Below are positions 2,226 to 20,242 of a DNA stretch of 23,100 bases, one piece after another (the stretch's first letter is position 1; every line of letters begins with the position of its first letter). Under the pieces are notes generated by a model that saw nothing but the letters and a program-made list of their open reading frames with translations, did not search any database and was not told the origin of the DNA. Source of the stretch: a virus; IMG/VR virus record IMGVR_UViG_3300035688_000069, positions 1 through 23,100 of that record; one strand, written 5' to 3'. Made by a program: the position numbers and the translations under genes.

Positions 2226-2267
2226 TTCTGGACAGCCTCCGTGCAAAAACTGTGATTTGTCTTTAAC

Positions 2268-2275
2268 TTTATAAA
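2268..2275 (-). promoter_or_regulatory. TATA box for the AbrB-like gene
   Basis: TTTATAAA is a near-perfect archaeal TATA element (self-complementary, so readable on both strands). On the minus strand its centre is about 25 bases before 2246, giving a short leader that contains GGAGG before the TTG at 2225. Confidence 0.5.
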
Positions 2276-2359
2276 AGTCAGCTGCTGGAACGACACTCTC
2301 GCCTAGTGGAGAGATGAGTTAAAGTGGCGCCTACTACGATAACTGGTTTCGCTGAAAAG

Positions 2360-2388
2360 TGCGGAGGGTAGGATTTGCACCTGCCACC
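2360..2388 (-). other. Degenerate tRNA 3'-end-like fragment
   Basis: On the minus strand this reads as the T-arm and acceptor 3' strand of a tRNA: a 5-base stem, the loop TGCAAAT, the return stem CCTAC, then CCTCCGC and A. Two features are wrong for a functional tRNA. The loop has G where the invariant second T belongs, and the T stem has a C-A mismatch. No D-arm or matching 5' acceptor strand GCGGAGG is found upstream. It may be an attachment-site remnant or a decayed tRNA. The rest of the 340-base gap (2226-2564) holds only the TATA box above, a weak TATA-like TGTATAAT at 2525-2532 and the methyltransferase ribosome site. Confidence 0.35.
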
Positions 2389-2550
2389 CCATGGAGATAT
2401 CACCCGCAACTCCCCTTTTTTCTTTTTGTGCGTTAATCAGAGGCCACATAGTAACTTGACTGCAGGATTTGGCAAGCATATTATTTTTCATTTGCAGAAT
2501 AGCTTAAGAACTGTTATTAGATTATGTATAATACTGAATAGAAGCAAGAA

Positions 2551-2555
2551 GGAGG
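2551..2555 (+). promoter_or_regulatory. GGAGG ribosome binding site deciding a TTG start
   Basis: GGAGG lies nine bases before TTG 2565 of the methyltransferase gene. The only nearby ATG (2570) is in another frame, so this site fixes the TTG as the start. Confidence 0.65.
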
Positions 2556-2564
2556 CTTTCAATT

Positions 2565-3446
2565 TTGCCATGGAAAGGTTCAACCTCGCATAAACTGATA
2601 ATCGGCGACAGTAGAAGTATGCATGAAGTTCAAGAAGAAACTGTCCATCTAGTTGTTACTTCTCCTCCTTATTGGCAGTTGAAAGATTATGGAACAGAAA
2701 AACAAATTGGACAATCAAACGGGTCATACGAGGACTATCTCAAGATGCTGTCAGAGGTTTTCAACGAATGTGTTCGAGTTCTCGGACCTGATGGAAAGTT
2801 GTGCATAAACATTATGCCGATTTTCCTAACTGGCAAGAGTTCAAAATTCGGAAGGCGTGTGACTAGGACAGTCCTTTCTGATTTGGAGCCCATGATGGAG
2901 CAAACTGGAAAAATGTATTTCCATTCATTGTATATATGGGACAAAAGAAAGATAACGCGGTTTAGTTCGTATGGCTCATATCCATATCCAACCAATGTGT
3001 TCTCCACCTTTCCGTATGAATGGATAATCGTCTTTGCAAAGGGTGGCAAAAGGCAGCCGGTTAGTGAAGAGATTAAGGAATTATCTAGGATTGCACATGA
3101 AGAATGGGAAGAATGGTGCGTGAACAGCATTTGGGAAATGCAGCCTGCGTCGGCGAAGAGAGAAGAGCACCCTGCACCTTTCCCTGAAGAGTTACCACGA
3201 AGGATAATCAAGCTTTATTCTTTCGTTGGCGACACCGTTCTTGACCCATTTCTCGGGAGCGGCACCACGATGAAGGTAGCTAGAGATCTGGGGAGGAATT
3301 CCATAGGGTATGAAATTAACCCCGCCTATTTGCCAATAATCAAGCGCAAGGTTCAATGGGGAAAGCAATTCTTGCACCCATCTGCAGGTGAGTTGAAATA
3401 TTCCCTACTGATCGAGGATGAAAGCACGGGGAAGATAGTCGCATGA
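2565..3446 (+). CDS. Beta-class DNA methyltransferase (SPPYW type, probably N4-cytosine)
   Basis: Predicted AdoMet-dependent DNA methyltransferase of the N4/N6 family (PF01555 type), 293 aa. The catalytic motif IV, TSPPYW (residues 32-37), comes before the AdoMet-binding motif I, DPFLGSGTT (227-235), which is the beta-class order. SPPYW, as opposed to DPPY or NPPY, suggests N4-cytosine methylation. The region between motifs (about 85-210) would hold the target-recognition part. The start is TTG 2565, preceded by GGAGG. The stop overlaps the next gene by four bases (ATGA), so it is coupled to the ferredoxin-nuclease gene, the usual arrangement for a protective methylase and its cognate endonuclease. 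The family is secure; the modified base and target site are unknown. Confidence 0.88.
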   Translation: MPWKGSTSHKLIIGDSRSMHEVQEETVHLVVTSPPYWQLKDYGTEKQIGQSNGSYEDYLKMLSEVFNECVRVLGPDGKLCINIMPIFLTGKSSKFGRRVTRTVLSDLEPMMEQTGKMYFHSLYIWDKRKITRFSSYGSYPYPTNVFSTFPYEWIIVFAKGGKRQPVSEEIKELSRIAHEEWEEWCVNSIWEMQPASAKREEHPAPFPEELPRRIIKLYSFVGDTVLDPFLGSGTTMKVARDLGRNSIGYEINPAYLPIIKRKVQWGKQFLHPSAGELKYSLLIEDESTGKIVA

Positions 3447-4681
3447 ACTTGCGATTGGATATCGATCTGATTGAATGCAGAAAACTGCGTGCAAAAGGGA
3501 TCTGTGTTAGGGATCCAAAAAGCGGAAGACATCCTTGTCAAGAGGCATGCCGAGAAAGTGGAGTCAGTCTTATAACAGAGACTAAGGGAGGAGACCCATA
3601 CGCTTGCATGCAATGCAAATATGACCCGCCCAATTTGTCACCACCTTGTATGTTCACTGAAAGAAGGACAAATGCTTCTTTCGAAAGCTTATTGAATGGT
3701 AAGCCTACAGGCATAACAGAGACAGCACAGACATGTCCAGTCGACGCAATCAAGATTGGAGACAGAGGGATTTGGATAGAGGAGAAGCAATGCGTTGGAT
3801 GCTTATTATGTGCTGCAACTTGTCCGATTTCAGCTATTACTCTGGATCAGAGTTTAAGAGCACACCTTCTGTCACCACATAAGTCAAGAGAGGCTGGTAA
3901 TCGCGCTTGTCCATGGAGCGCAATGAGTTTCAAGGAAACATCGAATGATTCAGTCAGGTTCCAGGAACTGCAAGATGAGAAGGGCGGTATTTGTTACCAA
4001 GAGACTGAACTCACTAAGTATCTCAAAGAATTGAGTTTTGAGAAGTGCACCCATCCCACTCTCAGTTACGTCAATCATTCCCGGGCGTACACAACAAATT
4101 TTGAAGAATTCTCAAAAAGTGATGAAGTAACCAAGCTTACTCCTTGGATAGGAGAAGCTCTTGTGAGGATTTCCGGCGGCACGCCTGTAAGCGCTTATGA
4201 AGCTAGATTGCCCAACAAGCCAGGGATGCGATATCCCCGTTTGGATTTCAGTATCATTGACAAAGAAGCAATTCTCGTCATCGAGAGCAAACGGGATGAG
4301 GTCTCAGCTAGAGCAGGAATAGTAGACCAGATAAGGAAAAAATACCGCGAAGAAATCAGGACCGTGCTTAGCAAAAGGCTGATTCAAAAGTGGAATATCT
4401 TGCTCGCGGTAGGAGGGCATGATAGGGACTTGTCCAGAAGCAATTATCTGCTTTCAATTCTAGGCACTAATGGAATTCAGATGATAAGTGCCTCATTTAT
4501 TTGGTCCTTGCTTGCTTACAACTTATTTTCAGGGAAACTGTTTCCTTGGAGCAACGTTATCCCGCGTGTTTTTTCAAACAGGAAGGCCGTAGCGCTATTG
4601 GCAAGTGGCGTCGTGGTGGAATATGAACCAAATCAGTTTGAACTCATTCCATTTGCGAAATTTCTGGGAGGTCTACGCTAA
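3443..4681 (+). CDS. Polyferredoxin-PD-(D/E)XK nuclease fusion, putative restriction subunit
   Basis: 412 aa with two parts. Residues about 50-165 form a dicluster 4Fe-4S ferredoxin like those in DmsB/HycB proteins: C55-x2-C58, C69, then TCPVDAI (C98), then C117-x2-C120-x2-C123-x3-C127-P, and a further ACPWSAM (C156). Extra cysteines at 12, 21, 32 and 36 could serve another cluster. Residues about 230-310 look like a PD-(D/E)XK nuclease core: D268 in RLDFSII, E281-S-K283 in VIESKRDE, and a following helix DQIRKKYRE resembling a QxxxY-type motif. The C-terminal 110 residues are shared with the protein at 5868-6821. Coupled by ATGA to a DNA methyltransferase, it is best read as a restriction nuclease that carries iron-sulfur clusters. 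Ferredoxin is certain, nuclease likely, restriction role inferred. The clusters could be structural, DNA-sensing or redox-gating. Confidence 0.78.
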   Translation: MNLRLDIDLIECRKLRAKGICVRDPKSGRHPCQEACRESGVSLITETKGGDPYACMQCKYDPPNLSPPCMFTERRTNASFESLLNGKPTGITETAQTCPVDAIKIGDRGIWIEEKQCVGCLLCAATCPISAITLDQSLRAHLLSPHKSREAGNRACPWSAMSFKETSNDSVRFQELQDEKGGICYQETELTKYLKELSFEKCTHPTLSYVNHSRAYTTNFEEFSKSDEVTKLTPWIGEALVRISGGTPVSAYEARLPNKPGMRYPRLDFSIIDKEAILVIESKRDEVSARAGIVDQIRKKYREEIRTVLSKRLIQKWNILLAVGGHDRDLSRSNYLLSILGTNGIQMISASFIWSLLAYNLFSGKLFPWSNVIPRVFSNRKAVALLASGVVVEYEPNQFELIPFAKFLGGLR

Positions 4682-5871
4682 TGCCGCCATTGCTCAATCG
4701 AGTTCCTACTGGACGGCTAATCTGTTTACATGCACTTTTACAACATCTAGTCGATAGGTATGGAAGAAACAAGTTCTCGCTTCGGGAAGCCCAGTACGAT
4801 GCAAGTTCAGATAAGACAATCTTTGACACTTGCACGCTTCTTGTAGACAGAGGTGCTTCACGGACAAAAGTCTGCCCTTTCCTCAAAAACCCACTAAGCG
4901 CTGCAAAATGCTATCTGACACAGAGTTTGGCCCGCGATACACTAAAACAAAAGTCAGTAGGGGATGCAGTCAATGCTTTAGAAGCCCTTGGACTTGTAGA
5001 TCGCATAAACGGCGAGTTTGCAGTCAACGAGGAAGGGTCAAAAATCGCTTCGTTGAACTACTATACGAAAGAATGGTTGGCTAGTATGAGGAAATGTGCC
5101 GTGTGTTACGGTCTGTTTCTAGGCTTCCTTTATATCGCAAAAAACCTTTCCACGGGAGGAGTCTTCCTAAGGAAAAAAGTAAAGCCTAGGCTAGCCTTTC
5201 CAGAAACAGGAGACACTTATCCTGATATTCTCGGCAACAGACTCAGGGTTTCAAGCGGTTGTGAGCTCGACACTATGACAAGGACAACTTCGTTGTTGAT
5301 AAAATGGGGTGTGAGTTTAGGGTACATCTCCGAGATCGGATCTTCGATACCGTCAGACTTGTCGCATGTCCAGACATTAGAAATCGTGAAAGAAAAGAAC
5401 ACACATCAGCAGTTCAACATTCATTTTTCGGAGGAAGAGCTTGCAAATGCAAGAGTGGAAAGACCGATACACTATCCATTCCTGACTCCAGATCCAGCTG
5501 CTCGTCGCGATTTGTCAGCCCCTGAAAGGAATGTGTCTATGCTTATGAGCCACAAGATCATAAACAGACGATATGCGTTAATCTACTCTCTTGGAGTAGC
5601 TGCGGAAAAGGGCTGCTGCCTTGACTTCCTAGAATTCAAAAACATAATCAAGAATCACAGTAACTTCATAGTTGATAGTTCCAACGTTGAAAACGCTATG
5701 AATCTGGAATTGAACACCGCAATCATTGCGGGGATACCATGGAAAACGGAAACGGAGCCGCACTTGATAAGGCCCCTAGTCAAAATCGACCTTTCTTATC
5801 TATCGAAGGGGGCGCCTCAGAATGTTGTGACTGAAGTCCTAGACATCACAAAGAGCGACATTTACAAGTGA
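4681..5871 (+). CDS. Unknown winged-helix-like protein between the two ferredoxin subunits
   Basis: 396 aa; no family recognised. Residues about 85-125 (SVGDAVNALEALGLV followed by a short hairpin and EEGSKIA) have the shape of a winged helix, so DNA binding is plausible. An N-terminal helical region precedes it. Cysteines at 51, 65 (in KVCPF), 77, 139 and 142 (CAVC) could bind zinc or another Fe-S cluster, as in other nucleic-acid enzymes, but the spacing matches no motif I know. The C-terminal third (from about 285) is helical with a CC pair at 312-313. It starts one base inside the previous stop (TAATG) and its stop overlaps the next start, so all three proteins should be made together. 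A target-recognition or assembly subunit of the system is the inferred role. Confidence 0.7.
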   Translation: MPPLLNRVPTGRLICLHALLQHLVDRYGRNKFSLREAQYDASSDKTIFDTCTLLVDRGASRTKVCPFLKNPLSAAKCYLTQSLARDTLKQKSVGDAVNALEALGLVDRINGEFAVNEEGSKIASLNYYTKEWLASMRKCAVCYGLFLGFLYIAKNLSTGGVFLRKKVKPRLAFPETGDTYPDILGNRLRVSSGCELDTMTRTTSLLIKWGVSLGYISEIGSSIPSDLSHVQTLEIVKEKNTHQQFNIHFSEEELANARVERPIHYPFLTPDPAARRDLSAPERNVSMLMSHKIINRRYALIYSLGVAAEKGCCLDFLEFKNIIKNHSNFIVDSSNVENAMNLELNTAIIAGIPWKTETEPHLIRPLVKIDLSYLSKGAPQNVVTEVLDITKSDIYK

Positions 5872-6821
5872 TGTCTATGAGCTGCTTAGACCCACACCCT
5901 TTTTGTGCTCATTACCAGCGGATTGAAAGAATCTGGTTCACCGACTTTCTTCGAGGAAAAGTCACAAAGGTCTGGGGTTCCCTTTGCCCCTCAGACGCAA
6001 TATCGCTGATAAAAGGGATGCAAATAAGAAAGGATTCATGTGTTTCGTGTCTTCTGTGTTCAGCTTTTTGTCCCAACAATTCAATAGCGTTTGACGTGAA
6101 CTTGAGGGCATACATTGTAGAACCACTCGAAGGAAAAGGTTGTCTGGCGGCATTTCTCGAATCAATAGGAAAGAAGAACGTAAAAACATCAAGTCTTCTG
6201 CGTGGAACGGCAACGAGTGTAATTGAGGATATAAAGAATCGTAACATGCTTTCGCTTGTGACACTCCTCGAGACTTTCACAGAATATATGGCTGATAATT
6301 TTGATGCCTTGACACAATGGGCAGGCAATGCATTCCGTTACATCACAGCGGACCAAGATGGCAAGGTGAGCTACAATGTCAAGATTGAAGGGGCGAAACG
6401 GGAAATAAGACTAGAAATATGCCACTTGACTAATGGAGCTCTTTCGCTCTGCAAATGCGATAATAGAACAAGTTTTGAGTTCATTGACAGATTTATGATT
6501 GGAAGAGACCGGGCAAGAATGGCGGCAGATGCCTTGGGATTCAGAAACCCCATTTTTGGATGTTACGTTGTGGGTGAAGGTGAGCCGAGTTACTTCGATG
6601 TCTCGAGAGGGATGGAGCCCCTAATTGAGGACAGACTCAGAGAGTATGACCTTCTGATGATTTCTTCTACTGCACTTTGGTTTCTGGTTGCTCAGAAGCT
6701 CTTTCTAAATAAAAGAATTCTCTGGACAAGGCTGCTTAAAGAATTGGCAAAGGCCAACAAGAACTATCTGGTCATTTTGGACAATGAATGCGTTCAGATT
6801 ATGCAGAGAAATATTGTATAA
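5868..6821 (+). CDS. Ferredoxin protein, paralogue of the nuclease with a lost active site
   Basis: 317 aa, homologous along its length to the protein at 3443-4681. Shared blocks include CPSDAI (C40), C58-x2-C61-x2-C64-x3-C68-P, the motif after it (FDVNLRAYIVEP against LDQSLRAHLLSP), LTQWAGNAFRYI against LTPWIGEALVRI, and LLMISSTALWFLVAQKLF against IQMISASFIWSLLAYNLF. Ligands for one full 4Fe-4S cluster remain (C58, C61, C64 and C40). The first-cluster cysteines are mostly gone. At the nuclease site, aligned D, E and K become E183, K196 and D198 (RLEICHL, LCKCDN), so it should be catalytically dead. The start is GTG 5868 or ATG 5871, coupled to the previous gene. It likely pairs with the active subunit as a structural, DNA-binding or regulatory half. 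Confidence 0.75.
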   Translation: MMSMSCLDPHPFCAHYQRIERIWFTDFLRGKVTKVWGSLCPSDAISLIKGMQIRKDSCVSCLLCSAFCPNNSIAFDVNLRAYIVEPLEGKGCLAAFLESIGKKNVKTSSLLRGTATSVIEDIKNRNMLSLVTLLETFTEYMADNFDALTQWAGNAFRYITADQDGKVSYNVKIEGAKREIRLEICHLTNGALSLCKCDNRTSFEFIDRFMIGRDRARMAADALGFRNPIFGCYVVGEGEPSYFDVSRGMEPLIEDRLREYDLLMISSTALWFLVAQKLFLNKRILWTRLLKELAKANKNYLVILDNECVQIMQRNIV

Positions 6822-7937
6822 TCAAACTAACTGCCTCGCCTTGTCCCAGACTACTACGTGTTCCTTTCTGCGAGTCTTGTTAATGGAATCCCATATCTTG
6901 CTAGCTGTACCTGTGTACTCTCGTTCTATAACGTATGTAGGTTCATATTTTGAAAGCTTGAGAAAGAACTCACCGCCACTTATTATTTGGTCCTTTACCT
7001 TCTTGTCGCCGACAACAAAAATGATCATTGCATCGTCTTTCGTAACCTTTTCAAGCTCTTCGAAGACCTGCTTCATATCTTCCTCGTACTTGTCTACACT
7101 TTGAATAAGGGTCCTTCTGATTTCTGCTCGGTCATAGCCCATTATTTCATAAACAATGCGTGTATAGTAAGAAGTATAATCTAGAGCGTTAAAATAGGGC
7201 GGGCTGGTAAAGACATAGTCAACGCTCTTCGCTGGTATTATCTCAGATAGATGTCGGGAGTCAAATTGATATATCTGCGCTTGGGCGCGAGAAGTTGAGA
7301 AAGTGTAATGTTTTTCGATCTTGTTGCAAAACTTGCTGTAGAAATCGATCTTCCAATGGGGCAGGAATATCTTGCCAATATTCGTCGAAGACCACTTGTA
7401 GTGATTGCAGCCTCGAGCAGCTAGGCAGATGCTTCCGAAAAAGCAAGCACGCTCATAGTCACTCATCTCATTTGTCATAGCAAGCTGAGCCATTCTCATT
7501 ATTTGTTCGGCTGTTTCGGGGTGAAAATACCTTGAAGGGCTTTCTGGCATCTTTGGTACTGATTGAAGCGACCGTGCTCTTGCTAATAATTCTCTGAGAT
7601 GCGATTTCAACCTGACTAGCTCATTTCTTTCAAGCTTTCCATTGGCTATTATAACTGCAATCGGGTTATTGTCTACACCGATCGCGTCAATGCAGTGCTC
7701 CCTTGCTTCATAGAGTATCGTTCCAGAACCACAGAACGGGTCTAACAGCTTCCCTTTTCTTGGCAGCTGTCCTATGATCTGCCTTGCGTCGATTGCTGAT
7801 ATTTTCCCACGGTATGGATAAATACCGTGGACCGACTTGGGATTATTGACATCTCTAAGGATTCTGAATGTTAACCGTCGTTCCCAAGTAGTCTGCTTGG
7901 CTGTCATGTAATCATCAAGCCTTTGAGTCTGAACCAT
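6822..7937 (-). CDS. Second DNA methyltransferase, motif I before motif IV
   Basis: About 371 aa; AdoMet-dependent DNA methyltransferase. Motif order is LLDPFCGSGT (about 65-73) followed, some 170 residues later, by FTSPPYFN, the reverse of the methylase at 2565. A YPYRGKIS segment precedes motif I, as in many N4/N6-type methylases with the HPYPAK-like element. I use ATG 7937, which has AAAGGAGAG five bases upstream; an upstream ATG at 7970 lacks a ribosome site. The gene converges on the ferredoxin operon with the two stop codons directly adjacent (6821/6822), so the two transcripts must overlap. It could methylate the second strand of an asymmetric site or protect against one of two specificities. 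Membership is secure; the base modified (m4C or m6A) is not. Confidence 0.85.
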   Translation of the reverse strand: MVQTQRLDDYMTAKQTTWERRLTFRILRDVNNPKSVHGIYPYRGKISAIDARQIIGQLPRKGKLLDPFCGSGTILYEAREHCIDAIGVDNNPIAVIIANGKLERNELVRLKSHLRELLARARSLQSVPKMPESPSRYFHPETAEQIMRMAQLAMTNEMSDYERACFFGSICLAARGCNHYKWSSTNIGKIFLPHWKIDFYSKFCNKIEKHYTFSTSRAQAQIYQFDSRHLSEIIPAKSVDYVFTSPPYFNALDYTSYYTRIVYEIMGYDRAEIRRTLIQSVDKYEEDMKQVFEELEKVTKDDAMIIFVVGDKKVKDQIISGGEFFLKLSKYEPTYVIEREYTGTASKIWDSINKTRRKEHVVVWDKARQLV

Positions 7938-8214
7938 AGAATCTCTCCTTTGTCGTTTCATCTCTGCCATACAAGAAATACGCTGAAAGGCCCTGTAACA
8001 GAGACAAGCAGACTAGGCTTAAACTAGTGATATTGGTCGATCTGATGTTGTGTACCTTGTCAATAGACATTTTCTTCATTAAATCTTATGTGTATTTCGC
8101 TTTAAAAACATTAGCGTCACAAATGAGTGACTATTTGAACGGTCTATCCGGTCTCGCCGACGAACAGCAAAAGTGTTTTATGTCGTTCAGACATGGATAA
8201 TATATGTGACCGGT

Positions 8215-8397
8215 ATGGTTAGATGCCCTGACTGTAATAAAGAAAATGCTAAGCCTTACAAAAAATGGAAGTACGGACAATTTAACGCCGAAGCTTATCT
8301 GTGCACCTGCGGCACAGAATTCCGAGAATATACGAAAGATGGGAAACACAGTTTCACATTAAAACGCAAAAAGGGAGAACGGTTCGTAAAAGGTTAG
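8215..8397 (+). CDS. Small zinc-ribbon protein
   Basis: About 60 aa. It starts MVRCPDCNKE and continues to YLCTCGTEF, giving Cys-x2-Cys and Cys-x-Cys pairs about 25 residues apart, which suits a one-zinc ribbon. The rest is basic (KKWKYG, LKRKKGERFVKG), in line with nucleic-acid binding. ATG 8215 is chosen because the frame upstream adds only a hydrophobic, unlikely extension; a TATA-like TTTTATG near 8175 would start transcription about 13 bases before it. The gene stands alone, divergent from the methyltransferase and convergent with the viral late genes. Such short ribbons are common in archaea; a specific role cannot be given. Confidence 0.6.
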   Translation: MVRCPDCNKENAKPYKKWKYGQFNAEAYLCTCGTEFREYTKDGKHSFTLKRKKGERFVKG

Positions 8398-8453
8398 AAC
8401 TGAAACGAGACTCCAGTGGCTAGCGCACGCCCCACAGTTTTGGTCGTGTGAGT

Positions 8454-9905
8454 TTATGGCTTGCTCCAAAACAGGTAAACCTTCGTCTGCAGAAGAAAGC
8501 CACATACTTTAATTAAACGTGCAAGCCTTTCGAGGCTCGCTTTCATTACTTCTTTGGCGTAAACTTCCTTCCTTCCGAAGGGAACATGGCAGAAAAAGTA
8601 TTTCATAAAGCGTGCGTGACAATGTTTAATGAATGCTTCCCTCAACTTTTCTAAATCTCCATTGCTTAGGGTTTGGAGCTTGTTTAAAACGTATTTTTCG
8701 CTTCCGAGCAGTTGAATGTTAAAGCCGAGATGCTCGAGGGTTTCCGCAATTTTTAAGGCTTCTTTAGGCGGTGGCTGCTCAGCTATTTTCCTCATTCCAG
8801 CCTTCTCTCCGAACGGGTTATATTTCGCCATGACAGCGGGCATTTCCACGTAAGGCGTTCCAGCCTTAGCCAAGGTTTCCTTTACGAGTTTTGCGCCTAA
8901 ACCTATGGTCCGGTATTTTGGATGAACAACAACTCGGCTGATGATGCTTAATTTTTCATTCAATTCTTTCATGGTCATTTTTGGCATGACAAGCCTTCGC
9001 CCGAAACATGTGGGTGGCGGATAGCAGTAGACGATTACTCCGCAGAGCTCGTCTCCACGTTTGAGGCAGAAGATTTTTCGTGGACCAGCTATTTTGTGGC
9101 TTCGGTAGTGGAAGCCTGCAAGCTTTCTCCAATCCTCAGTTGTGCCTTCTATGACCTGCATTTCCCTTGTGAGGCTGCATTCTTTAGCTGGCTTGTTTGG
9201 ATAATAGTTTACTCTTATCTCTTTTCCGAAGCGTTTGTGAATGTGGACTGAAGGGTTTAAGTCCTCAAAAAGGTCTGTGTGGGTTGTTGCTGCTAAAACT
9301 GCTTTCCCTTGTTGACGTGCGAGTTTCTGAAGGTTGTAAGCGACTATTTTGGCTGTGTCCCTGTCAAGTGTAGCTGCAAATTCGTCCATAATCCAGAACT
9401 GAGCCTTAGACTCTATCATTTTTGCAATTTTGTAGCGGTATTTCTGTCCGTCGCTTAACTGCCCATAAGTGCGTAAGAAAAGGAAGGCATCGTTTAAACC
9501 CACTTTACTCAGCAGTTCCAAGGCTTCTTCGAGTGTTTTACACACTGTTTCGATTAATGGCTTGTTCTGTTGTGGTTGAATATCTGCAATGTTTACGCAG
9601 TTTAACCCCATGTCTTGCTTGATGTCTTTCTCTAAAGCCTTCAGCAAAACAGACTTGCCTGAGCCGCTGTCACCGGTGATGAGCGTAATGTCTTTAGGCG
9701 ATATTTTCAATTCAACATTGTCGTAAATGACGAATTTTTGCCACTGATCTAAGCCTAACCCGAAGCCTTCAGCAACGCCCACAACTCTGCTCGTCGGCCT
9801 TGGCGGGGCTGTTTTGTAACCTATATCAATGATGAAGGTGCCTGTTTCACGATCATACCTGCGGGCGTATTGTCTTATGCGGAAATACTCTCTTCTGCGT
9901 CGCAT
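8454..9905 (-). CDS. ABC-type ATPase fused to a GNAT acetyltransferase
   Basis: About 483 aa. The N-terminal half is a soluble ABC ATPase: Walker A GDSGSGKS (about 78-85), signature LSDGQ (150-154), Walker B FWIMDE (170-175), and an H-loop region with ATTHTD. No membrane segments are seen. The C-terminal half is a GNAT domain (from about 260) with the acetyl-CoA-binding region VVVHPKYRTIGLGAKLV. This matches the archaeal group known as ABC-type ATPase fused to a predicted acetyltransferase (COG2401), whose function is unknown. It is the last gene of the leftward virion cluster, but an 108-base gap with a hairpin and tandem repeats separates it from the holin-like gene. Start ATG 9905; a TTG at 9923 is possible. 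It may modify a host or virion protein; this is a guess. Confidence 0.8.
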   Translation of the reverse strand: MRRRREYFRIRQYARRYDRETGTFIIDIGYKTAPPRPTSRVVGVAEGFGLGLDQWQKFVIYDNVELKISPKDITLITGDSGSGKSVLLKALEKDIKQDMGLNCVNIADIQPQQNKPLIETVCKTLEEALELLSKVGLNDAFLFLRTYGQLSDGQKYRYKIAKMIESKAQFWIMDEFAATLDRDTAKIVAYNLQKLARQQGKAVLAATTHTDLFEDLNPSVHIHKRFGKEIRVNYYPNKPAKECSLTREMQVIEGTTEDWRKLAGFHYRSHKIAGPRKIFCLKRGDELCGVIVYCYPPPTCFGRRLVMPKMTMKELNEKLSIISRVVVHPKYRTIGLGAKLVKETLAKAGTPYVEMPAVMAKYNPFGEKAGMRKIAEQPPPKEALKIAETLEHLGFNIQLLGSEKYVLNKLQTLSNGDLEKLREAFIKHCHARFMKYFFCHVPFGRKEVYAKEVMKASLERLARLIKVCGFLLQTKVYLFWSKP

Positions 9906-9931
9906 GGTGTCCACTGACAACAATTTTCAGT

Positions 9932-17630: not shown

Positions 17631-18620
17631 TTAGAATACTCCTGACAATGACTCGAAAAGCCACCCCTTGAGCAGAAACTGAGCCCGAAAGAGGTACGGC
17701 TTCACATCCGTGACATCAATATTCCTATAGCTTATGACATCACAGAATGAAATCCCATAAACCTGAATCGTACATTGGATAAAATCGCAGTAGAGGACCG
17801 CAGGTGTAGAGCCATTGCTTGGATTCGTGGTTTTGGCGAGAAGCCAAACATAGCCGCTCGAGTCGACGTAGTCTGGCCAGCTACTCGAGATCGTGATGGT
17901 TATGGTCTCGTCCCCGCTGCCGGATCCAGTCTGGGCCTGCTGCCATGCCGAAGCGAAGTGATTCCAAATCTTGATCGTCGCTCCATTTCCCCCGAGGGAA
18001 GTGCCATAGCCCTCAAAACTTAGCACAATTTTCTTGACACACTGCTCTCGAGGACCTATCTTGAATCTAAAAAGCATCAGGGCATACTCGTTATTTACGC
18101 TGTGGCTCTTGGAGAATCGAACATCATCACTAGACCAGATGCTCTGATACTGAAGGTTTGTCAATTCAGTCCAAGACACACTCGAGGGAACGAGTTCTGT
18201 TGCTGCACCAGCACTAAAAGCCTTGTGAGGATCTCCACTCGGATATCCTAGCCCATAAAAATTGTAAACCGTCTGATAAGGCAGATTGCGGTTTTCTCGG
18301 ATTATGGCGTTGATCTGCGCAGTAACCTTATCCCTCATCACTTTGCCCGCATCAGCTCCAGGAACCGCCTTATCAACCGTGTAAATATTGCATCGGAAAA
18401 CCATGTACCGGCGTCTCAGACGTCCAGCAAGCTCAAGCTTCTGATCCTGGCTGCTGTCGAGCCCCATCGTGATTTGAGCGTCATACTCTTTGAGGAGTTC
18501 TCGGTCATAAGCTTCTTTTGTGGCCAGAAGGCTGGCAAGCGAACCATTATCCTTGGTTACCCGAATCCTCGTAGTAATCAACCGCAGAAGAGTTAAGACT
18601 GAGTCTTCCAATTCCGACAT
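17631..18620 (-). CDS. Tail terminator/completion protein with beta-sandwich insert (putative)
   Basis: 329 aa. Residues 1-115 (to YNFYGLGYP) and the last 35 (YRNIDVTDVKPYLFRAQFLL) look like one small alpha/beta domain cut in two, of the size of tail terminators, with RRRYMVFRCNIYTVD as a core strand. Between them, about 118-290, lies a beta-sandwich with YALMLFRFKIG, ATIKIWNH, ETITITISSSWPDYVDSSGYVWLLA and DFIQCTI. This insert resembles repeated surface domains in archaeal proteins (a W-N/S start, DYIDSSGYVYLL). It is coupled (TAATG) to the closure gene and precedes the tail tube, which fits a terminator. The insert is clear; the terminator call comes from position. Confidence 0.55.
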   Translation of the reverse strand: MSELEDSVLTLLRLITTRIRVTKDNGSLASLLATKEAYDRELLKEYDAQITMGLDSSQDQKLELAGRLRRRYMVFRCNIYTVDKAVPGADAGKVMRDKVTAQINAIIRENRNLPYQTVYNFYGLGYPSGDPHKAFSAGAATELVPSSVSWTELTNLQYQSIWSSDDVRFSKSHSVNNEYALMLFRFKIGPREQCVKKIVLSFEGYGTSLGGNGATIKIWNHFASAWQQAQTGSGSGDETITITISSSWPDYVDSSGYVWLLAKTTNPSNGSTPAVLYCDFIQCTIQVYGISFCDVISYRNIDVTDVKPYLFRAQFLLKGWLFESLSGVF

Positions 18621-20242
18621 TATGTGGCAAGCAACCTCCGAGCGATTGATTTGAAATAAATCGGCTGGTTCTCGTAAGTGAAAGGCTGAACGCTCTGAAT
18701 CTCGTACTCCTCGCCCTTGCGACGTATCTTGTCATGATGACGCACCGGCACGAAGGTGTAGAATGCAAGATAGTCGTTCAGCAAATAGCCAGCCTCGAGA
18801 AGGACCTCTTCAACTCTGACCGGCGAAACGACAGCCAAAACGTCCAACGGCTCACCATAACTCACAGTCTCGACAGCTTGGCGGACCGGATAAAGCAATA
18901 TCGCCTCGCCTTTGCTGTTCAAAATCTGCGCGAACCGGGTCAATGGTTCCTCGTAATTAAGGAACATCCGAGCCAACCATGTTACATTTGCCATGGCCTT
19001 CTGAGGCGCGATCGGACTATAATCCGTAAACAGCGGGCCCCAATACATGAACTCATCCTGATACTTCTCAACTATTTGATAAGCAAGTTTGAAGCTTGGA
19101 GGATCTCGCTCTTTCCTGATCTTCCACAAGATTCCCGTAGTGATCGCATCATAGTACGCACATGCTGGGAACCTCGTAACCACATCAAGATAGCCTGGCC
19201 AACAGATCTCTGGCCAATAAGCAGGATATTGCCCCGAAGCCCTGATCGCCTGAACAAAATTGTAGACGCGCTGACAAGTGAAACTCCAACCCTCATACGC
19301 ATATAGCCCCAGCAGAGCGAAGCTCACAGGATCATCGTAAACTTCGGTATCATTGATTCCCACCCGGTACCAGACGCCAGAACCCGAAGGCGGAGGCTGA
19401 TAATACAAGTAGAGCTGCTCAAATCCATCTCTGAGGAAGCCTGCAGCATCTGCCATCATGCCATTGTATCGAGAGGCATTAGCCACATCGTACGTGTCAG
19501 CCAAGAGCTTCAAGCCGATCAAGCAGTAAAGATTCTCAATGCTCATGATAGTGTCCCAAGTATCGCTTATGCTGACGTAGTTTGCGAAGCCCCCATAGTA
19601 TTTGTCATGAATCCCCAAGTTTGCGGGCTCATATTGCATCGTATAGAGAAAAGTGTAACCCGCAAGTTTGGCCGCATCAAGATAGCCCGAAGTGCCGATC
19701 AGAGCATACGCCTTAAGCAACGCTGGAATAACGCGACCCGCATCGATGCTGTAATATTGGGTTGAAGATTCGCTGGATTTGAACCCGCCATATGCCTTCT
19801 TCGCTGGATCTGTGCATTGCTGGGTAAGAAGCCAATCGGCTAACTCGATTATTTTTGAGCGAATCTCAGTTTGCTTAGAAACGAATTGAGTAGCGGCATA
19901 TGCCTCACATAGAAATTCGACCGCAAAAGCTGCCGCAAAAACACCCTTGCCAAAACCCTTATCGCCATGATCTACGGTTCCGCCCTTCGCCACATAATAA
20001 GTATACGCCAGATTGTTTTTCATAGTCACAACATTGCCAGCAACAGAATCAACCTCATTCCATTCATTATGAGCAGAATCCTTGATCTCAACTTGCATGG
20101 CAGCACTAAACTTTGTTCCATCTGTAACTGTCACATTCTTTTGGCCAGCTGGCGGATCAGCAGCCATCGCAGTCGTGATGGCGTAGAACCAAGGCGCATA
20201 ATGCATGATATAGTCATAGTAGGCAGACGGGACGCTACCCAT
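18620..20242 (-). CDS. Head-closure-like protein fused to an alpha-toroid glycosidase-like domain
   Basis: 540 aa. Residues about 95-440 form paired helices with aromatic-rich loops (ELADWLLTQQC, AYGGFKSSES, TIMSIENLYCLIGLKLLAD, SFALLGLYAYEG), the pattern of (alpha/alpha) toroid glycosidases or lyases. A small beta domain (about 33-92, VTVTDGTKF to GGTVDHG) is inserted near the start. The last 98 residues (from SKGEAILLYPV, with VPVRHHDKIRRKGEEYEIQSVQPF) look like a phage stopper/head-closure beta-barrel. The gene directly follows the gp6-like connector, where a stopper is expected, and is coupled on both sides by TAATG. The fusion implies that each neck carries carbohydrate-directed domains. 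Catalytic residues cannot be assigned. Confidence 0.6.
   Translation of the reverse strand: MGSVPSAYYDYIMHYAPWFYAITTAMAADPPAGQKNVTVTDGTKFSAAMQVEIKDSAHNEWNEVDSVAGNVVTMKNNLAYTYYVAKGGTVDHGDKGFGKGVFAAAFAVEFLCEAYAATQFVSKQTEIRSKIIELADWLLTQQCTDPAKKAYGGFKSSESSTQYYSIDAGRVIPALLKAYALIGTSGYLDAAKLAGYTFLYTMQYEPANLGIHDKYYGGFANYVSISDTWDTIMSIENLYCLIGLKLLADTYDVANASRYNGMMADAAGFLRDGFEQLYLYYQPPPSGSGVWYRVGINDTEVYDDPVSFALLGLYAYEGWSFTCQRVYNFVQAIRASGQYPAYWPEICWPGYLDVVTRFPACAYYDAITTGILWKIRKERDPPSFKLAYQIVEKYQDEFMYWGPLFTDYSPIAPQKAMANVTWLARMFLNYEEPLTRFAQILNSKGEAILLYPVRQAVETVSYGEPLDVLAVVSPVRVEEVLLEAGYLLNDYLAFYTFVPVRHHDKIRRKGEEYEIQSVQPFTYENQPIYFKSIARRLLAT

Follow-up and report, generated by a model that had tools for sequence, protein, structure and literature searches.

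FokI, a type IIS restriction enzyme with the site GGATG, is a single polypeptide and cuts both strands by the pairing of two single-site cleavage domains; zinc-finger and TALE nucleases owe their cutting activity to this same domain. We describe a locus of five genes, MT1/FS1/ORF3/FS2/MT2, which is carried by a tailed-virus record (IMG/VR record IMGVR_UViG_3300035688_000069, positions 1 to 23,100; this 23.1-kb stretch is hereafter called the window). Most probably it is a type IIS-like (asymmetric-site) restriction-modification system, the endonuclease of which is a FokI split into subunits, with iron-sulfur (Fe-S) clusters in the cleavage subunits. The tail genes of the record lie on the minus strand (PF18906 tail tube, an HK97-gp10-like protein and a YQBQ-like tail protein), and the host of the virus is probably archaeal.

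The locus resembles FokI in the recognition fold (ORF3), the cleavage fold (FS1, Z about 10) and the presumed methylation of both strands; it differs in splitting the proteins and in adding ferredoxin domains, a presumably degenerate second nuclease and four invariant cysteines in ORF3. The type IIT heterodimer of R.BspD6I and Nt.BspD6I provides the best fold match of FS1 and likewise has unequal subunits and two methyltransferases. However, a BspD6I chain joins recognition and nuclease and both its subunits are active, whereas in the window recognition has a protein of its own, one of the two nucleases is degenerate by its sequence, and Fe-S domains are predicted. FokI-type winged-helix modules are known as free-standing proteins, namely DndG/SspB and BrxA (PMC10853773, PMC12839542). 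ORF3 is similar to these (SspB Z 8.7), but they are components of phosphorothioate or BREX systems, which have no FS-type nuclease, and their structural score is far under that of FokI. Membership of the locus in BREX, Dnd or Ssp was considered and dropped.

Two further comparisons concern the cysteines. Nucleases of the Cas4, AddB and Dna2 type also combine a PD-(D/E)XK nuclease with Fe-S cysteines; however, their cluster is inside the nuclease domain, whereas the window has a separate N-terminal ferredoxin-like domain and its closest folds are BspD6I and FokI. The conserved cysteines of FS1 lie N-terminal of its nuclease domain; a Cas4/AddB-type identity was considered and dropped. The dicluster ferredoxins (HycB/DmsB/RnfB type) share the CxxCxxCxxxCP-like spacing and the Fer4 profile matches, but the domains in the window are fused to a nuclease or pseudo-nuclease, and there are no redox partner genes. 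We know of no restriction enzyme with cleavage proteins fused to predicted iron-sulfur domains. In the literature searched, which was incomplete for subscription papers and excluded REBASE, no type II enzyme was described as having an Fe-S domain; a review of type II enzymes nowhere mentions iron or Fe-S (PMC4081073).

Recognition and cleavage proteins

ORF3 (4681..5871, plus strand; 396 aa) is predicted, from its model, to be a free-standing version of the FokI recognition domain. The AlphaFold2 model (pLDDT 85, pTM 0.88) aligns 273 residues with FokI residues 9-385 at Z 20.4; further structural matches score far lower (Nt.BspD6I Z 9.2, SspB Z 8.7). Foldseek also relates it to FokI (E 3e-6), and the profile of the ORF3 family, compared with all PDB sequences, has FokI as its sole match (E 0.014). 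The first-pass annotation, a reading of the letters alone, had called this protein “winged-helix-like”; the structure searches recast it as having the fold of the whole FokI recognition domain. The Pfam families of FokI were matched by none of the window proteins and homologues at E 0.1, and a fold search of ORF3 in BFVD gave nothing at E 0.001; its best entry, at E 0.11, was a phage protein of 187 aa that carries FokI in its name. Among the very few invariant residues of the family are the cysteines C15, C51, C65 and C77 (4723..4911, plus strand), which suggest another, probable metal site.

FS1 (3443..4681, plus strand; 412 aa) is the putative catalytic subunit, with a ferredoxin-like N-terminal half followed by a nuclease domain (4091..4648, plus strand). 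In the AlphaFold2 model, built from 18 sequences, most of residues 221-410 have pLDDT of ~75-90 and follow the alpha-beta-beta-beta-alpha-beta order of PD-(D/E)XK enzymes; the active-site strands 266-272 and 276-283 and the subsequent helix 295-310 are modelled at about 75-90. The top matches in VIA-align are Nt.BspD6I (Z 11.2, 170 residues), FokI (10.3) and the R.BspD6I small subunit (9.5), then other PD-(D/E)XK proteins; Foldseek alone is weak here (best E 1.8e-3). D268 (4244-4246) and E281-x-K283 (4283-4285 and 4289-4291) are kept in FS1 and in all 16 untruncated homologues, not in FS2, and the homologue (FS protein) of Methanolobus passes the cut-off of PF14281 PDDEXK_4. The first-pass annotation had staked its proposal on a PD-(D/E)XK fold around these very residues; the model, the BspD6I/FokI matches and the conservation agree with it. 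FS1 is thus predicted, at the level of modelling, to be a PD-(D/E)XK nuclease of the restriction type, with the Nt.BspD6I and FokI cleavage domains as its closest matches.

The ferredoxin-like region of FS1 (3605..3922, plus strand) contains C98 with C117/C120/C123, which are family-wide, and C58/C69/C127/C156, which are common to FS2. All 18 family members retain the CxxCxxC of C117, C120 and C123, and 17 of them have the upstream cysteine (C98), the exception (L007) having a start that is possibly cut short; this is the motif of [4Fe-4S] ferredoxins, CxxCxxC plus a fourth cysteine. The second set (in FS2, C6, C13, C68 and C92) has counterparts in Bacteroidota, where the FS proteins have equivalents of FS1 C58/C69/C127 plus a nearby cysteine, and is incomplete or absent in other homologues. 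The ferredoxin part matches HycB and 7Fe ferredoxins in the PDB; the Fer4-type Pfam matches, which uphold the ferredoxin domains reported earlier, are below the cut-offs for FS1 and above it for FS2 (PF00037). Judging by these motifs, the FS proteins of the window would hold two [4Fe-4S] clusters and the other homologues one. FS1 also has an extra N-terminal segment (3443..3598, plus strand) with C12, C21, C32 and C36, which is in no homologue.

FS2 (5868..6821, plus strand; 317 aa) is paralogous to FS1 across the ferredoxin part (BLASTP 1e-13). Its ferredoxin-like region (5868..6167, plus strand; C40 with C58/C61/C64, and C6/C13/C68/C92) is closest to that of FS1, at 36% identity. Outside this region FS2 matches gene X, which encodes a protein of ~150 aa found in the homologous loci: the best non-X match of the X profile (with the X of virus record L050 included) among 1672 open reading frames (ORFs) is FS2 (E 5.5e-5), and hhalign aligns X with FS2 residues 160-204 (E 1.8e-4), where the catalytic motif is expected but missing. 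This X-like pseudo-nuclease segment lies at 6345..6479 (plus strand). We presume FS2 to be a degenerate nuclease partner and the counterpart of X, both of which lack D...E-x-K by sequence; a catalytic residue could be recruited from elsewhere. X and the FS nuclease are only weakly similar, and we do not claim that they share an ancestor beyond the FS2 link. The gene positions are swapped in the window, where the active subunit stands at the place of X and the degenerate one at the place of FS, both with Fe-S domains; in most relatives X lacks such a domain. In L050, X (L050:4065-4715) includes a Cys-rich stretch, CDECGLCQIACC, and is intermediate between plain X and FS2.

Methyltransferases and operon layout

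MT1 (2565..3446, plus strand) is a beta-order SPPY DNA methyltransferase, in which motif IV (TSPPY, aa 32-36) precedes motif I (DPFLGSG, aa 227-233); it matches PF01555 at 3e-49 and PADLOC MTase_II at 6e-74. In MT2 (6822..7970, minus strand) motif I (aa 75-84) comes first and TSPPY is at aa 255-259; the matches are PF01555 (3e-12) and PF02086 (6.5e-8). Pfam, PADLOC and PHROGs are concordant that both are DNA methyltransferases, and the earlier identification of the two as methylases holds, with N6_N4_Mtase in MT1 and N6_N4_Mtase plus D12 in MT2. The SPPY motifs suggest methylation which we take to be that of N4-cytosine. The two form a stable pair: about 40 of 43 MT2 loci have MT1 alongside (57-72% identical), the MT2 orthologues being mostly 45-54% identical. 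Paired methyltransferases are expected for asymmetric sites (type IIT, PMC4081073; type IIA, PMC12602166), and MT1 probably modifies one strand of such a site.

The pair also occurs by itself. About 20 Thorarchaeota genomes have MT2-MT1 without a nuclease, in most cases at one shared chromosomal position (L010, L011, L013-L015, L017, L019, L021-L024, L027, L028, L030, L032, L033, L038, L040, L044, L047); L033 and L040 have MT2 only, and MT1 is truncated in L027. The neighbours are genes of the purine-nucleoside-phosphorylase type, GNAT, FAD oxidoreductase, M28 peptidase and WD40. This looks like a domesticated two-methyltransferase system. A 42-kb virus record has the pair and no nuclease genes (L004:4800-6676), perhaps as protection against restriction of the MT1/FS1/ORF3/FS2/MT2 type.

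In the window, MT1, FS1, ORF3 and FS2 overlap by 4, 1 and 4 bases, which is consistent with one translationally coupled operon, and the stop of MT2 abuts that of FS2, tail to tail. The gene positions and overlaps given in the first-pass annotation are reproduced; its MT2 gene is confirmed as well, but the longest ORF begins at 7970, not at 7937. A Shine-Dalgarno-like AGGAGG (2550..2555, plus strand) precedes the TTG start of MT1. Sigma-70 promoter matches number 18 versus 9.5 in shuffles; for the presumed archaeal host these have no meaning.

Relatives and the viral defence slot

Homologues were gathered from the neighbourhoods of the 43 loci, which had been fetched with an alignment of MT2 and its viral relative (A1); iterative profiles gave 18 homologues of ORF3 and 17 of FS. 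The usual layout is MT2-MT1-X(~150 aa)-ORF3(~391-439 aa)-FS(~280-356 aa), found in Bacteroidota, including Flavobacterium, and in Nealsonbacteria. Methanolobus, Saccharicenans and virus record L050 have its second half inverted, and other gene orders are seen in Thermoplasmata, Poseidoniaceae and an alphaproteobacterium; where ORF3 or FS is absent in a locus, the contig ends at that point. Recognition and cleavage are separate genes in the window and in all homologous loci, unlike in FokI, and methyltransferase and nuclease genes are linked in both, the loci being ascertained through MT2. The mutual linkage of FS, ORF3 and X across several gene orders is free of this ascertainment.

The proposal of a restriction-modification system built on ferredoxin-nuclease subunits is therefore well supported by the fold, by the conserved residues and by the recurrence of the gene set, with both methyltransferases, in distant bacteria and archaea. 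The first-pass annotation had asked for such co-occurrence and had named homologues in a redox pathway, without any methyltransferase, as contrary evidence; the gene set does recur and no homologue found is in a redox pathway, the methyltransferase part of the answer being partly a product of fetching through MT2. It had overlooked the relationship to FokI, the nature of FS2 as a presumably degenerate nuclease and the viral nature of the replicon that bears the locus.

Other searches added little. Single-protein scans, which used exact short peptides and reach near relatives only, gave no match for FS1, ORF3 and FS2 in viral contigs or for FS1 in genome contigs, and a viral scan with alignment A7 gave none. 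With FS1, tblastn found no match in phages and only short ferredoxin matches in plasmids; the Flavobacterium FS and ORF3 had no plasmid match, and ORF3 no phage match. PADLOC profiles compared with FS1, ORF3, X and FS gave nothing at E 0.1 except weak matches of BrxP (0.021, to the ferredoxin part of FS2) and PDC-S26 (0.012, to the Methanolobus FS).

More than 60 related virus contigs have structural genes and the gene at 8454-9923 in common with the window, and none has FS1, ORF3 or FS2. The product of this gene joins an ABC-type ATPase to a GNAT acetyltransferase domain, and dozens of viral contigs conserve it, mostly at 80-89%. The slot between the small ORF 1971-2246 and the ABC-GNAT gene (window 2246-8454), or just past the latter, holds differing systems in the relatives: a C5 methylase with a nicking-endonuclease-like HhH protein (L064), type I HsdM/HsdS (L079), a relative of type II nicking endonucleases (BspD6I-type) with a methyltransferase (L068), a TmtA-like protein (L062) and a SIR2-like one (L063). 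The MT1-MT2 locus is accordingly one of many interchangeable defence cassettes; we believe that such viral cassettes probably serve competitor exclusion. Elsewhere in the window, a homologue of the gene 18620-20242, 53% identical and interrupted by an internal stop, is present in one genome out of 227 from the phylum of the Thorarchaeota seed, and there is none among 243 genomes of the phylum of the Thermoplasmata seed.

Weighing of the explanations and their meaning

In the split FokI-like system that we favour, ORF3 would bind an asymmetric site, and FS1, with FS2 as its catalytically degenerate partner, would dock on ORF3 and cut. The N-terminal [4Fe-4S] ferredoxin-type domains would fold the subunits or hold them together and to ORF3, while MT1 and MT2 would each methylate one strand and so protect the carrier. 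Double-strand cutting would need the FS1 of two complexes to pair, as in FokI; otherwise the product would be a nick. Borne by a virus, the system would rid a shared host of competing DNA that lacks the modification. Several points weigh against this. Since FS2 is degenerate, a complex has one predicted active site and may nick rather than cut. FS1 is modelled poorly in its Fe-S half (pLDDT mostly <60 outside residues 71-130), which can show no cluster, and the cluster assignment is inferred. The methyltransferase linkage is partly built in, because the loci were fetched through MT2, and the orphan pairs in Thorarchaeota and one virus indicate that MT2-MT1 can act alone. Finally, the FS profile compared with 395, 295 and 393 genomes from the phyla or orders of the seeds found only the seed genome each time; the family is hence rare and patchy, as restriction systems are.

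The single active site leads to the question of whether the locus is a nicking system or a remnant, in which FS1 nicks methylation-controlled sites (for strand marking, repair or replication) and foreign DNA is not restricted. The closest fold, Nt.BspD6I, is indeed a nicking large subunit, and D...E-x-K is missing from both FS2 and X; however, FokI cuts both strands by pairing cleavage domains with one site each, and two dedicated methyltransferases in a viral defence slot indicate restriction, so we hold this explanation to be unlikely. Somewhat less probable still is a system split in the same manner in which the cysteines bind zinc, or only serve assembly, and no Fe-S cluster is formed. The ORF3 Cys4 and the extra four cysteines of FS1 could be zinc sites, and the Fer4 matches of FS1 are under the Pfam cut-offs; yet CxxCxxCxxxCP together with the matches to ferredoxin profiles (HycB and 7Fe ferredoxins in the PDB, and PF00037, the cut-off of which FS2 passes) is typical of 4Fe-4S.

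We give about the same low credence to gating by redox state, oxygen or DNA damage, whereby [4Fe-4S] clusters switch the nuclease on or off and the virus tunes an anti-competitor weapon to the physiology of its host. It is tempting to propose this, considering that FS1 and FS2 each have two four-cysteine sets like electron-transfer dicluster ferredoxins and that a purely structural role does not need ferredoxin-like spacing. However, several homologues retain the nuclease with the second set missing or incomplete, no examined locus has a partner reductase, and the family spans hosts that differ in oxygen use: Flavobacterium and the marine Poseidoniales are aerobic lineages, and Methanolobus is anaerobic. 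Because the second cluster is dispensable and the hosts span a methanogen, Flavobacterium and marine archaea, the clusters are most simply, and in our opinion likelier, structural rather than redox-gating. An operon for a redox enzyme or for Fe-S assembly, unrelated to restriction, would account for the ferredoxin matches; it is hardly credible against the nuclease and FokI folds and the DNA methyltransferases co-occurring in all loci seen. An electron-transfer operon was considered and dropped as well.

Among families of type II restriction enzymes, the split FokI-like system would be, as far as the literature searched shows, the first to have Fe-S domains, and it renders the choice between a structural and a regulatory role of nuclease Fe-S clusters directly testable. 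The natural separation of the FokI recognition and cleavage folds shows how such enzymes can be put together or broken up, and it is a source of new modular parts; the locus also extends, by one system, the defence cargo recorded for poorly known viruses.

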